Notes under the pieces: model-generated | The model's database searches: none | What the model saw: the letters and a program-made list of their open reading frames with translations, nothing else | What the model was told of the DNA's origin: nothing | Source: Gilliamella sp. ESL0405 | GTDB lineage: Bacteria; Pseudomonadota; Gammaproteobacteria; Enterobacterales; Orbaceae | DNA: 64,000 bases | Direction of reading: 5' to 3' | Assembly: GCF_019469205.1 (NCBI RefSeq) | Contig: NZ_CP048265.1 | Location: 1,054,001 to 1,118,000, forward strand | Shown here: one piece after another, positions 6,668-32,437 of the stretch | Numbering within the stretch: position 1 is the stretch's first letter | Layout: each line of letters begins with the position of its first letter | Translations under genes and position numbers: made by a program

Positions 6668-6760
6668 TCGTTCTCAACGGGGTGCCGAGTTGGGCTGAGA
6701 ATGTTAACTTGCTAACATAACCCGTCGAACCTGAACTGGATCATGCCAGCGGAGGGATTT
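6668..6760 (+). promoter_or_regulatory. TPP riboswitch (THI element)
   Basis: Hallmark THI-box blocks appear in order: ACGGGGTGCC, GGGCTGAGA, a variable stem (GTTAACTTGCTAAC), then CCCGTCGAACCTGA, CTGGATCATGCCAGCG and GGAGGGA. These are the P2/P3 and P4/P5 signatures of the thiamine pyrophosphate riboswitch. It sits 56 bases before the thiB start codon, which carries its own GGAGG, so control may be at translation or by early termination. Expected effect: high TPP lowers thiBPQ expression. Confidence 0.96.
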
Positions 6761-6815
6761 GAGTTATAATATCTGCTCAAACCTTTTGTCTTTTACTTAC
6801 TATTTTGGAGGCAAA

Positions 6816-17602: not shown

Positions 17603-17686
17603 TCTCCTTAATTAGTAGCGAACTATCTTAACTAACTATCACAACTAACTATTACAAACAACTATCACAACCACTAATTAAGGAGA
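17603..17686. repeat. 14-bp inverted repeat enclosing three 13-bp tandem repeats
   Basis: TCTCCTTAATTAGT (17603-17616) is perfectly inverted as ACTAATTAAGGAGA (17673-17686). The 56-base loop is almost wholly made of a 13-bp unit, AACTAACTATCAC, repeated three times with one or two changes and preceded by a partial copy. It lies between the convergent ends of the GntR gene and the SIMPL gene. It may end transcription, but a canonical U-tract is missing. Confidence 0.7.
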
Positions 17687-22084: not shown

Positions 22085-22996
22085 ATGAACCTTTCAAACA
22101 GTCAATACCAATTATCGAAAAAATTTCAATTAATTCCAACCATTTTGTTTACTGTAGTTGGTATTTTCATTGCCATTTTTCTGGGTGTTTTATATTCAAT
22201 TATCTCAAGTTTTTCCCCGCTAATTCTGCTCGATATCGGCTTGGCTGTCGGGATGGCTTGGGTATTAACAACGATTACCAGTAATTTAACAAAGTTGGCA
22301 AAAGTAAGAAATGAGCTTGTCAGTTTTTTAATGGCGCTTATCATTTGTTTATTTGCTTACTATTCTGCGACGGTCACTTTTGAACTGTTGATCTTCGATA
22401 TGGATTATGAATATTGGTTAGATTTTTTCCTTTCTCCTGTAACTGTATTTGACATTATTATCAGTGATATTATTCCTAATCGTGTCATAACTATTACTAA
22501 AGGTAGTTCAAAATCTGGTTTAGAAATATCAGGTATCTTGCTTGGCATTGTCTATTTAGTTGAGTTGATTGTGTTTTTATGGCCAGCTGCGGTTACACTA
22601 AATATGGATGATTGTTTTTGTGAGGACTGTCAAAAATGGTATTCTAAATTTAATTTTTATTCAGCAAGTGACGATTCGTTAGTGACTAATATTAATACTT
22701 GCCAGTCAGGCCATTATGCCGACGTATTGTCTCAGGTTGTTTTTTATAAAAATTTAAATGAATTAGTTCAGCAGTCCGAACCAACATCCGAAGAAATAAC
22801 AGGATTGAATTACATTTACTGCCAATGTCCAAACTGTCATGAAAGAAACCTATTGAGTATTCTAAAAATCAAGCTGAAAAAAAATAAGAAAGAATATGAA
22901 GCGGTAACAGATTCTGACTCAATTCTAGTAAATAATAACTATATTGATGCAAAGACTGATGAAATTTTCCAAACTCAAAAACGAAATTTATATTAA
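22085..22996 (+). CDS. Membrane protein with cytosolic cysteine clusters (possible zinc ribbon)
   Basis: I do not recognise the family. 303 residues: hydrophobic segments at about 16-40, 46-63, 79-103 and 147-171, then a hydrophilic C-terminal half. That half carries seven cysteines in a pattern suited to metal binding: C177, C179 and C182 (CFCEDC), C206 with H210, and C246, C248 and C251 (CQCPNC) followed by H252. Similar paired CxxC knuckles occur in rubredoxin/zinc-ribbon tails of membrane proteins. No enzymatic motif is visible. Single gene, with a strong hairpin just after its stop and then the 60-bp repeat array. Its A/T-rich codon use does not differ obviously from that of its neighbours. 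Confidence 0.6.
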   Translation: MNLSNSQYQLSKKFQLIPTILFTVVGIFIAIFLGVLYSIISSFSPLILLDIGLAVGMAWVLTTITSNLTKLAKVRNELVSFLMALIICLFAYYSATVTFELLIFDMDYEYWLDFFLSPVTVFDIIISDIIPNRVITITKGSSKSGLEISGILLGIVYLVELIVFLWPAAVTLNMDDCFCEDCQKWYSKFNFYSASDDSLVTNINTCQSGHYADVLSQVVFYKNLNELVQQSEPTSEEITGLNYIYCQCPNCHERNLLSILKIKLKKNKKEYEAVTDSDSILVNNNYIDAKTDEIFQTQKRNLY

Positions 22997-23009
22997 TTTG
23001 CAAAAATAG

Positions 23010-23037
23010 AACAACAGGGACATCGCTCCCTGTTGTT
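23010..23037 (+). terminator. 11-bp hairpin at the edge of the repeat array
   Basis: AACAACAGGGA and TCCCTGTTGTT pair perfectly around a CATCGC loop, 14 bases after the stop of the membrane protein gene. No U-tract follows; instead the 60-bp array starts immediately, and the last bases of the stem (TTGTTGTC) match the end of the repeat unit. Confidence 0.55.
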
Positions 23038-23040
23038 GTC

Positions 23041-23664
23041 TGCCTGATATGGTAAAGAAAACCGTATCTTTAGACGGTAAGATCGCAATGGCTTGTTGTC
23101 TGCCTGATATGGTAAAGAAAACCGTATCTTTAGACGGTAAGATCGCAATGGCTTGTTGTCTGCCTAATATGGTGAAGAAAACCGTATCTTTGGACGGTAA
23201 GATCGCAATGACTTGTTGTATGCTTGATATGGCGAAGAAAATCGTATCTTTAGACGGTAAGATCGCAATGGCTTGTTGTCTGCTTGATATGGCGAAGAAA
23301 ACCGTATCTTTGGACGGTAAGATCGCAATGGCTTGTTGTATGCTTGATATAGCGAAGAAAACCGTATCTTTGGACGGTAAGATCGCAATGGCTTGTTGTA
23401 TGCTTGATATAGCGAAGAAAACCGTATCTTTAGACGGTAAGATCGCAATGGCTTGTTGTATGCCTGATATGGCGAAGAAAACCGTATCTTTGGACGGTAA
23501 GATCGCAATGGCTTGTTGTATGCTTGATATGGCGAAGAAAACCGTATCTTTAGACGGTAAGATCGCAATGGCTTGTTGTATGCTTGATATGGCGAAGGAA
23601 ACTGTATCTTTGGACGGTAAGATCGTAATGGCTTGTGATCTGCCTGATATGGTGAAGAAAACAA
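23041..23664 (+). repeat. Array of ten 60-bp tandem repeats plus a partial eleventh
   Basis: Ten consecutive units of exactly 60 bases begin TGCCTGATATGGTAAAG; a partial eleventh ends at about 23662. The first two copies are identical; the others differ at scattered single bases, almost all transitions, and no indels occur. Each unit contains ACCGT and ACGGT flanking an 8-nt loop, a small hairpin that is conserved in all ten full copies. Because 60 is a multiple of three and the unit has no stop, long frames are open on both strands (plus: 20-residue repeats like MVKKTVSLDGKIAMACC; minus: repeats like SSPYQAYNKPLRSYRPKIRF). Neither frame has a Shine-Dalgarno site, so I treat the array as probably non-coding. 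Confidence 0.9.
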
Positions 23665-23794
23665 ATTAAATTTTTAATATTTTTTTCAATCTTTTACTTT
23701 TGTAATAAAAGTAGAGGATATCTTGTTTTAATCTATCCACGGGGCGAACATGTCAATATTGTTAGCATAGAGATTAATTGCTATAGTCTTATAA

Positions 23795-23820
23795 AAAACG
23801 GCGCAAATCTGCGCCGTTTT
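23795..23820. terminator. Bidirectional intrinsic terminator after the MATE gene
   Basis: AAAACGGCGC and GCGCCGTTTT form a 10-bp GC-rich stem around AAATCT, with an A-run on one side and a T-run on the other. It ends transcripts of the MATE gene (minus strand) and any coming from the repeat array. Confidence 0.88.
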
Positions 23821-23845
23821 CACTATCTCTGAATTTAATCAATGA

Positions 23846-25228
23846 TTAGTCATTTAAACATTGTCGATTTTTAATTGATCTGAAATACCAAAACAGTACA
23901 AGATAAGCTGTTCCGGTTGAAAGCAGATCTGCGGTTGGTGATGCAGCCCAAACGCCATCAAAACCAAAAAATAGTGGCAAAATATATAAGGCAGGGAGCA
24001 AGATTAAAATTTGCCTTGAAAGGCTTAAAAGAATCGATATTTTTGCCATACCAATACATTGGAAAAAGCTAGTAGTTACCATTTGAAAGCCAACAAATGC
24101 AAAGGCTAAAGTAGTATAACGTAACGCAAGTGCTGATAGATCGACTAAATCTTTTTCGGAACTGAAGGCCCGGACTAAAATATCCGGGATAAAAAATCCT
24201 AATAGAAAACCGAATGTGGTTACTGCGGTTGCGACCTTAACTGCATAGATAAAAGTTTGCTTAACTCGAATATAATTTTTAGAGCCATAGTTGTAACCAA
24301 TAATTGGTTGCATACCTTGATTAATGCCGATTACGATCATGATGATTAATGTAATAAGCCGGTTGGCATTTGAATAAGCGGCAATGGCATCATCGCCGGA
24401 TTGATGTGCTGAAGATGCATAATGATTAAGTTGCCAGTTAATAAATACCACTACAATTGATGCGGCAACTTGCATAGCAAAAGGCGACATACCGATAGAT
24501 AGTATGGCTTTTACATATTGTAAATTAAGCGTGAAATTGCGACGGTATAATTTTATATTACTGTTTTTACTTAAAAAATGCTGCATAACAAATATAAAGC
24601 TTATCAACATTGACAATGTTGTTGCCAGTGCTGCTCCTCGCATTCCCCAACCCAGTCCAATAATAAAAATCGGGGCTAAGATAATATTGGCTATTACACT
24701 CACAAACATGGTTACCATGGCTTTAAATGGATAGCCACTTGCTCGCATCATATTGTTGTAGTTGAAAGTCAGTGTGGTAAATATGCTGCCGGGTAAGAAG
24801 ATCTCTAAAAATTCTTTTGCATAGGTATGATTGACCGGACTTGAGCCAACAAACCTTAAAACAGGATCAACAAAATAGAGCAACAGTGACAGCGTTATAC
24901 CGCTCAACACTGCGGTAAGCATAAAGGAGGTACCGGCAACTTTCTCGGCATTATCGTTTTCACCACGACCTAAAAATATCGAAATCCGGCTTGCTGAACC
25001 AATACCTACTAGCATACCAATTCCTGCAGCTAAATTCATTACCGGTAAAATTAATCCTGCTGCGCTGAGCGCTTCTCGACCAATCCAGTGACCAATAAAG
25101 ATGCCGTCAATAATATTATAAAGCGTATTAACAATAGTACCGATGATTGCCGGTAACGCATATTGCCAAAAGAGTAAGCTGATTTTTTTATTCTTAAAAT
25201 CTTGATAGATATCTTGAGAGTGAGCCAT
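23846..25228 (-). CDS. MATE family efflux transporter
   Basis: Polytopic inner-membrane exporter with about twelve membrane segments in two bundles. It starts MAHSQDIYQDFKNKKISLLFWQYALPAIIGTIVNTLYNIIDGIFIGHWIG, with the classic MATE helix 1-2 pattern (PAIIG, NIIDGIFIG). The second half repeats it (PFAMQVAASIVVVFINWQL and IIMIVIGINQGMQPIIGYNYGSKN). It resembles the DinF/MepA branch more than NorM/MdtK. Substrate unknown; family members export drugs or toxic metabolites using Na+ or H+. The frame extends five codons to a GTG at 25243; the ATG at 25228 gives 460 residues and is preferred. Second MATE gene of the window is mdtK at 51627. Confidence 0.88.
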   Translation of the reverse strand: MAHSQDIYQDFKNKKISLLFWQYALPAIIGTIVNTLYNIIDGIFIGHWIGREALSAAGLILPVMNLAAGIGMLVGIGSASRISIFLGRGENDNAEKVAGTSFMLTAVLSGITLSLLLYFVDPVLRFVGSSPVNHTYAKEFLEIFLPGSIFTTLTFNYNNMMRASGYPFKAMVTMFVSVIANIILAPIFIIGLGWGMRGAALATTLSMLISFIFVMQHFLSKNSNIKLYRRNFTLNLQYVKAILSIGMSPFAMQVAASIVVVFINWQLNHYASSAHQSGDDAIAAYSNANRLITLIIMIVIGINQGMQPIIGYNYGSKNYIRVKQTFIYAVKVATAVTTFGFLLGFFIPDILVRAFSSEKDLVDLSALALRYTTLAFAFVGFQMVTTSFFQCIGMAKISILLSLSRQILILLPALYILPLFFGFDGVWAASPTADLLSTGTAYLVLFWYFRSIKNRQCLND

Positions 25229-25252
25229 ATTATTTTTTCCCACTATTAGACG

Positions 25253-31731: not shown

Positions 31732-31753
31732 AAAGGGAGTATTCACTCCCTTT
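31732..31753 (+). terminator. Intrinsic terminator after grxD
   Basis: AAAGGGAGT and ACTCCCTTT form a 9-bp stem with a 4-nt loop followed by ATTATT. The sequence runs straight into a 16-bp tandem repeat. Confidence 0.85.
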
Positions 31754-31800
31754 ATTATTGGTGTTAACTATTATTGGTGTTAACTATTATTAGTGTTAAC
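31753..31800. repeat. Three 16-bp tandem repeats overlapping the rnt stop
   Basis: TATTATTGGTGTTAAC occurs three times head to tail, the third with one change (TTAGTG). The third copy contains the rnt stop codon (TTA at 31796-31798 on this strand). The unit starts in the T-rich tail of the grxD terminator. Confidence 0.92.
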
Positions 31801-32437
31801 TATGAAGCTGTTCATTTGGCATCAGTGGCCAGCCGCCTAGTCGTTTAAACCGATTGACCATTTCACAAAATAAGATAGCTGTTTTTTCTGTATCATAAAG
31901 CGCTGAATGGGCTTGTTTATGATCGAACGGAATATTTGCCGTTTCACATGCTTTAGCCAGAACTGTTTGCCCAAATACTAAACCACAAAGTGATGCGGTA
32001 TCAAAGGTGGCAAACGGGTGAAAAGGGTTGCGTTTAATGCCAGCTCTTTCAGCTGCAGTCATCAAAAAACTGTGATCAAAATGTGCATTATGTGCCACAA
32101 TCACCGCTCGGGTACAGTCATTGGCTTTGATTCCGCTGCGCACCATTTTAAAGATAGCTTCAAGTGCAACTTTCTCATCAACTGCGCCACGTAAAGGGTT
32201 GTCAGGATCAATGCCATTAAAAGCTAATGCAGTAGGCTCTAAAATCGCATCGGCAAAAGGATTAACATTAAATTGCAATGTTTGATCAGGCTCCAGCCAG
32301 CCGTCATCCGTCATTTTCAGCGTAATGGCTGCGATCTCTAAAATAGCATTGAGTTTTGGATCAAATCCGGAGGTTTCTATATCAATAACCACCGGATAGA
32401 ATCCACGAAAACGTTCACAGAGTTTAGTGTTAGGCAC
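31796..32437 (-). CDS. rnt: Ribonuclease T
   Basis: DEDD-family 3' exoribonuclease maturing tRNA and 5S/23S rRNA ends, 213 residues (E. coli 215). ExoI D19 and E21 are in [11 protein letters not shown]; ExoII is in [10 protein letters not shown]; the ExoIII histidine and aspartate are in [16 protein letters not shown]. Convergent with grxD, the enteric arrangement. The stop lies inside a 16-bp tandem repeat, so repeat changes could alter the last residues. Confidence 0.96.

Follow-up and report, generated by a model that had tools for sequence, protein, structure and literature searches.

The tandem array at positions 23033–23662 of the analyzed window consists of 60-bp units, and every unit combines approximately 28 bp of one sequence, R, with approximately 32 bp, S, of the organism's own ribD gene. 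The window is a stretch of 64,000 nucleotides of the Gilliamella sp. ESL0405 genome (G000:C1:1054001–1118000), which is a single contig of 2.81 Mb and 99.97% complete. With the agent left aside, the origin of the array by capture of a fragment of the own ribD and tandem expansion is close to certain—as a matter of judgement and not of computation. As to the agent, the balance of the sequence evidence tips slightly toward a minisatellite that would have been seeded by off-target integration of the captured fragment by type I-F Cas1–Cas2/3 and would then have grown in tandem to ten units. The chances are about even that the locus represents the natural birth of a CRISPR-like locus, the type I-F integrase having written a 32-bp piece of ribD into intergenic DNA under duplication of 28 bp, and the product having become a tenfold minisatellite. 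The ribD content of the units and the agreement of their 60 bp with the unit length in the type I-F CRISPR arrays of the genome are both beyond what the first-pass annotation of the window could see.

Architecture of the array and its flanks

As judged by Tandem Repeats Finder, the array has a period of 60 bp, 10.5 copies, 94% matches, and no indels; no strand is assigned to it. The ten units without indels of the first-pass annotation are thereby confirmed, but the true start lies 8 bp farther to the left, and a last half unit of 30 bp follows the ten full ones. The units are arranged head-to-tail and are nearly identical, as in a minisatellite, and differ from each other by a mean of 4.0 per 60 bp (range 0 to 8). 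The variation is confined to 12 of the 60 columns. It had been described as transitions only, which holds for 11 of these columns but not for unit column 8, where C and A alternate by transversion. The hairpin arms ACCGT/ACGGT around an 8-nt loop, reported for every full copy, are exact in eight of ten; in units 4 and 10, a change from C to T leaves a G–U pair. The array is the only place in the window where repeats of at least 14 bp are spaced by 59 to 61 bp. Shorter tandem repeats occur at 37–154 (approximately 13 copies of the 9-bp unit TACAAGCTC, Tandem Repeats Finder), at 17621–17671 (13 bp, 3.9 copies), and at 31753–31803 (16 bp, 3.2 copies). At gathering scores, Rfam yields a single match in the window, a TPP riboswitch at 6668–6775 on the plus strand.

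The array sits between two converging genes. The gene before it (22085–22996, plus strand) is an ORF of no named family that encodes a protein of 303 aa with a hydrophobic N-terminal part and Cys pairs, so that its earlier description as a cysteine-rich membrane protein agrees with the sequence as judged by eye. Searches with this protein found nothing in Pfam at E 1 or in NCBIfam at E 0.001. Matches to this orphan, membrane-like gene are found in 11 of the 34 other genus genomes (L007–L017), with 34 to 52% identity to the protein of the window. The 60-bp array is absent from the retrieved flanks of these 11 loci as judged by Tandem Repeats Finder, one of the flanks having only 48 bp past the gene; a related-loci scan seeded with the 303-aa protein returned no relatives. 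On the other side, a MATE family efflux transporter (23846–25243, minus strand; ORF with TIGR00797 over the cut-off) converges on the array.

Each of the two genes is followed by a hairpin, neither of which is assigned to a strand. The left one (23010–23037) has a perfect 11-bp stem and a 6-nt loop, exactly as annotated previously, and the likeness to the unit starts at 23033, that is, within its 3′ arm. A terminator-like hairpin GGGAC..GTCCC is found at the corresponding place in three of the relatives (L009, L010, and L014), and the hairpin of the window is probably the former terminator of the 303-aa gene. The right one (23794–23820, bounds set by eye) is paired in folds of the whole array, is not listed by the terminator scan, and is probably the terminator of the MATE gene.

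A ribD fragment in every unit

Searched against the own genome at the DNA level, the array found, besides itself, one strong match in ribD and one of 19 bp at C1:2455623 (E 0.8), the latter taken as chance. The match in ribD comprises 33 bp at 97% (G000:C1:2246033–2246065; E 2e-8), and at uniform base composition, the expected number of such 33-bp matches with all 60 starts counted is 4.6e-10. The gene at this place is an ORF of locus L004, and its family was confirmed by NCBIfam. From unit 1 to unit 10, the differences from the own ribD amount to 1, 1, 3, 2, 2, 2, 1, 2, 1, and 4 of 33 bases, which corresponds to an identity of 29 to 32 of 33, with 32 in four units. The strand of ribD found in the unit is the sense strand, and the reading frame is that of ribD. 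At E 1e-30, ribD was detected in 33 of the 35 genus genomes, and 30 loci were compared, the own one included. The 29 other genes differ from the form in unit 1 at 7 to 13 of the 33 positions and the own ribD at one, so the piece came from the ribD of this lineage. In the plus frame, the Pfam family RibD_C passes its cut-off; no single stretch does, and an unrelated family of 13 residues passes as well, so this was discarded as a weak echo of the DNA match.

Taken together, the unit, ribD, and both flanks delimit S to 30 to 33 bp and R to 27 to 30 bp. The ranges reflect an overlap with ribD of one base at one junction and two at the other, which can occur by chance, and two registers of 28 + 32 bp are permitted. 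In the register used here, the first copy of R (23035–23062, plus strand) is taken as the duplicated native target of 28 bp, on the basis of the ribD and flank boundaries and of the register of likeness to the own CRISPR repeats, and it recurs every 60 bp. The first copy of S (23063–23094, plus strand) is the 32-bp piece of ribD; its ten copies follow every 60 bp, the last at 23603–23634. The array closes with a lone copy of R (23635–23662, plus strand) that joins the right flank at 23662, where the likeness to the unit ends. This is as expected were R the native site and S the insert, and the last copy would then be the original native one.

In the own genome, R has no further copy at up to 3 mismatches. 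The site that results from joining the flanks without the insert was compared with orthologous intergenic DNA at eight of the 11 orthologue loci, which gave P 0.013, 0.02, and 0.037 for L009, L010, and L014 and P 0.43 to 0.94 for the five other relatives. The likeness stems mostly from the terminator: R alone yields P 0.22, and R with flank yields 0.24 and 0.09. As far as these comparisons go, R is likely native sequence; the flanking duplication measures 27 to 30 bp, and no empty site was found. The array has no match at E 0.01 in 59 relatives (34 of the same genus, one of the same family, and 24 of the same order) and none in phages or plasmids, collections from which near relatives of the own genome may be missing. 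A core pattern of R was not found in viral contigs and one of S not in a genome contig collection, where near relatives may be missing as well.

The resident type I-F CRISPR–Cas system

Cas1f, Cas3f, and Csy1–4 are encoded at one locus of the genome, all above NCBIfam cut-offs, and this Cas1 match is the only one in the genome. The adaptation genes are hence intact, Cas1f and Cas3f both lying over their cut-offs. The array leader occurs in 20 copies at up to 2 mismatches, of which 18 are followed by 5 to 16 repeats and two by a single repeat passing the cut-off. From these arrays, 138 repeats of 28 bp and 118 spacers were extracted, an undercount in which one 15-repeat array was read from a stretch holding eight; 108 spacers have 32 nt, five have 31, and five have 33. 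The own CRISPR unit therefore amounts to 28 + 32 = 60 bp, equal to the period of the array. A similar distribution is given for the type I-F system of Pectobacterium atrosepticum, with approximately 90% of spacers at 32 nt and approximately 10% at 33 nt (PMC5059440, in the portion available). No extracted spacer is duplicated within one array—four of the 118 occur in two arrays—so amplification of units is no visible habit of the own CRISPR loci.

The leader copies lie at C1 59–61 kb, 370–374 kb, 1642–1654 kb, 1668 kb, 1707–1710 kb, 2047–2048 kb, and 2136–2141 kb (L080–L085, L087, and L043), often about 1 kb apart, and the repeats behind 18 of them are drifting. For type I-F systems, the median is two arrays per Cas locus, and about ten are called rare (PMC12814883, in excerpt). 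Diverged matches to leader, trailer, and array stretches are present in 28 of the 30 other genus genomes compared, out of 34, for example in G005, G023, and G030; G005 and G030 hold 26 such matches each, some at a spacing of approximately 390 bp, as if array cassettes were multiplying across the genus. None of the 34 other genomes of the genus carries the exact leader motif when up to 2 mismatches are allowed. A trailer-like stretch of 32 to 36 bp is found six times at C1 2539917–2544290 (L086), in two groups with a spacing of approximately 455 bp, and no array was found there.

For the own arrays, no protospacer source was found in plasmids, and among the genus-genome matches listed none was traced to a protospacer. 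In a phage search with the own arrays, 47 of the 54 records matched at 60 to 80% via several joined pieces in ICP1-type phages, and the two rows examined are annotated as a CRISPR–Cas locus. The last spacer has 29-bp matches (E 0.08) in seven Salmonella and Escherichia phages; in the two of them that were examined it is not preceded by CC, and the matches are too weak for deriving a PAM. The PAM rule was thus taken from the literature and not from the own system.

Likeness of the array to a CRISPR locus

The array shares its composition of 28 + 32 bp with the own CRISPR arrays, and its insert is of spacer length and from a known source, 30 to 33 bp of ribD. In place of different spacers between the repeats, the same piece lies in all ten units. 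The hypothesis was formed after the 60-bp period had been seen, and four choices of register and strand were open to the analyst. A register with columns 1–28 as the repeat was tried first; it proved weak and was replaced by the registers that the boundaries of ribD and the flanks allow. Of all 120 registers of unit 1, the own repeat fits best at plus column 3 (R at columns 3–30, S at columns 31–62), a register allowed by the boundaries, with 14 of 28 positions alike, and 0.45% of the 28-mers of the window match it as well. Across the ten units the agreement is 11 to 15 of 28, and it is 15 for the inferred ancestor, which falls short of repeat identity. The majority unit reaches 12 of 28 in this register and 14 elsewhere on the minus strand. 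On a profile of the repeats from 20 arrays, the same register takes first place among the 120 for the majority unit and comes second, behind plus column 60, for unit 1, unit 3, and the inferred ancestor; the share of window 28-mers scoring as high is 0.15% for the inferred ancestor, 0.59% for unit 1, and 0.84% for the last copy. The stem of the own CRISPR repeat has no counterpart in the array as judged by eye.

Further elements of a CRISPR locus were sought around the array. None of the 20 leader copies found in the genome at up to 2 mismatches lies in the window, and the left flank is unlike the leader as judged by eye. Within 160 bp to the left, no fit to the IHF consensus has fewer than 2 mismatches, a level that random stretches of the window reach as well; on the right, IHF-like sites with 1 mismatch are present, and such sites are also frequent in random stretches. 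The 3′ GG of type I-F protospacers is presumably to be read as CC before the spacer on the other strand. In ribD, a CC on the spacer strand lies across the beginning of S, where a slip of one base from the type I-F PAM would place it; S is not directly preceded by CC. In P. atrosepticum, GG is found at the 3′ end of 90 to 93% of protospacers, and both acquisition slips and spacers from the chromosome occur (PMC5059440, same portion). The site of the array adjoins a perfect inverted repeat, the 11-bp hairpin. In one in vitro assay, the off-target site used most often was an inverted repeat (PMC9456107, in excerpt), and in vitro a type II-A integrase goes to off-target sites that resemble leader–repeat junctions (PMC6895254, in excerpt).

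Off-target integration as the proposed origin

In the proposed mechanism, type I-F Cas1–Cas2/3 would insert a 32-bp prespacer cut from ribD at a non-CRISPR site by the hairpin. The insertion would duplicate 28 bp of the target, as it does with the CRISPR repeat, and the resulting R–S–R would be a tandem repeat of period 60. Slippage or unequal exchange would then multiply the unit to ten, and the copies would drift. This reading is preferred because a 28-bp duplication around a 32-bp piece is the product of one integration, and the repeat-like sequence at the predicted register lends it moderate support. The lack of a leader and of a good IHF-like site on the left, the slipped PAM, the likeness of R at only 14 to 15 of 28 positions, and the microhomology-like junctions weigh against it. 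Very probably, the locus is not a working CRISPR array and does nothing as one.

Nivala, Shipman, and Church reportedly described off-target, that is, noncanonical, integration of spacers and spontaneous CRISPR loci in 2018. To our knowledge, off-target spacer integration is familiar mainly from experiments, and natural cases are few. The formation of new CRISPR-like loci by such integration is cited in PMC11788318 and PMC9456107, as far as their excerpts go, and ectopic spacers within type II arrays are reported in the part of the literature covered. Among titles and opening lines of abstracts in the open-licence literature, no natural case of type I-F off-target integration was recognized. 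The array resembles the described products in that a fragment the size of a spacer lies in non-CRISPR DNA between duplicated target sequence of about repeat length; it differs from them by its type I-F genome, the self fragment from ribD, and the tenfold amplification of the whole unit. With a type I-F CRISPR array it shares the unit size, next to a complete I-F system in the same genome, whereas the uniform spacer-like piece, the divergent repeat part, and the missing leader set it apart. With minisatellites and VNTRs it has in common head-to-tail units of equal length, high identity, and no match in the other species searched; unlike these, it carries in its unit a piece that can be traced to a housekeeping gene 1.17 Mb away. 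The reading of the first-pass annotation as a fast-changing VNTR accordingly fits in part, namely as a local tandem expansion without a match in 59 relatives.

Alternative explanations

The main rival is a template switch during replication. Templated insertion by microhomology-driven template switching places short inserts from distant loci, and in this case the polymerase would stall at the hairpin, copy approximately 30 nt of ribD, and rejoin approximately 29 nt upstream, so that a duplication with ribD sequence as filler would remain, whereupon slippage would expand the 60-bp unit; no Cas protein would take part, and the period of 60 would be coincidental. The insert and the duplication are explained equally well by this route and by integration. 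The combination of a short insert of distant origin with a local duplication beside a hairpin is what a template switch leaves behind, the overlaps of one and two bases at the ribD junctions fit it, and it needs no PAM, leader, or IHF-like site. It would not, however, fix the lengths at 28 and 32, and neither a split equal to the own CRISPR unit nor the resemblance between R and the CRISPR repeat in a permitted register is predicted by it, so that this route is a serious possibility that we nevertheless hold to be doubtful. A degenerate solitary array with a ribD self-spacer, decayed from a true I-F array, would likewise account for the period of 60; AAGAAA closes columns 1–28, and a gapped global alignment of these columns with the own repeat gives P 0.0012 for unit 1, 0.0018 for the last copy, and 0.025 for the majority unit. 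Against this, the local alignment of unit 1 gives P 0.26, and the ungapped one 11 of 28 at P 0.08; the spacer-like piece is identical in kind across all ten units, and a leader is lacking. A strongly diverged repeat beside a piece that is up to 32 of 33 identical to ribD makes decay not credible, and its probability is accordingly minute.

Two further readings ascribe a product to the array: an RNA, either with hairpins in each unit on the plus strand or as a minus-strand transcript serving as a tenfold antisense to ribD mRNA, and a protein of 20-residue repeats. For the RNA, all eight variable columns within the RNAalifold stems keep their pair on the plus strand, and an RNA from the minus strand would share 33 nt of complementarity with ribD mRNA. 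Nevertheless, the RNA with periodic hairpins that had been suggested finds no backing in the RNAalifold energy, which is no better than after random relocation of the same changes (P 0.58 plus, 0.78 minus). Five tests with fixed structures gave P 0.08, 0.56, and 0.70 for three consensus folds and P 0.031 (plus) and 0.006 (minus) for pairs kept in unit 1's own fold, the latter two being lenient because the fold came from one of the rows of the real data, toward which they lean. Covariation as high as observed was reached in 207 of 500 column shuffles, and the z-scores of the unit folds lie between 0 and −1.7; those of the whole array, −6.1 plus and −4.8 minus, were disregarded, since the repetition is itself lost on shuffling. 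Another hairpin within R (columns 9–12/19–22), in which all changes seemed to keep pairs, was dropped, as column shuffles and random placement did as well. The structure is thus read as being under no consistent constraint. Terminator-like sites on the minus strand number nine versus 0.7 in shuffles; they are the hairpins of eight units plus one of the flank and are taken as one chance hairpin repeated. No minus-strand promoter-like site lies in 22900–23900, and two promoter-like sites in all compare with 4.3 in shuffles. Together with the lack of a match in 59 relatives, this renders a functional RNA very improbable. The open frames noted earlier on both strands do exist, on the plus strand with 206 aa (23049–23669) and on the minus strand with 166 aa (23164–23664), and neither has a ribosome site by eye. 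The plus frame, which reads S in the frame of ribD, speaks for a protein; but a 60-bp unit free of stops remains open at any copy number, no start signal is seen by eye, and in each of the three open frames the number of synonymous changes is what chance would give (3, 4, and 4 of the 12 variable columns versus 3.0, 3.8, and 4.4 expected, the first pair belonging to the 206-aa frame). This frame is a mechanical one with no sign of being a gene, and a translated repeat protein is exceedingly unlikely. On this sequence evidence, the array probably has no specific function.

Implications

If off-target integration is the true origin, off-target CRISPR adaptation would be a source of bacterial minisatellites, marked by a unit of repeat-plus-spacer length and a self-derived insert. 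This suggests a simple computational test: a search for tandem units whose insert matches the own genome elsewhere and in which both lengths match the resident CRISPR type. A natural, amplified case of type I-F integration of self DNA would link CRISPR adaptation to minisatellites and to orphan CRISPR-like arrays and would be a rare record of the birth of an array.
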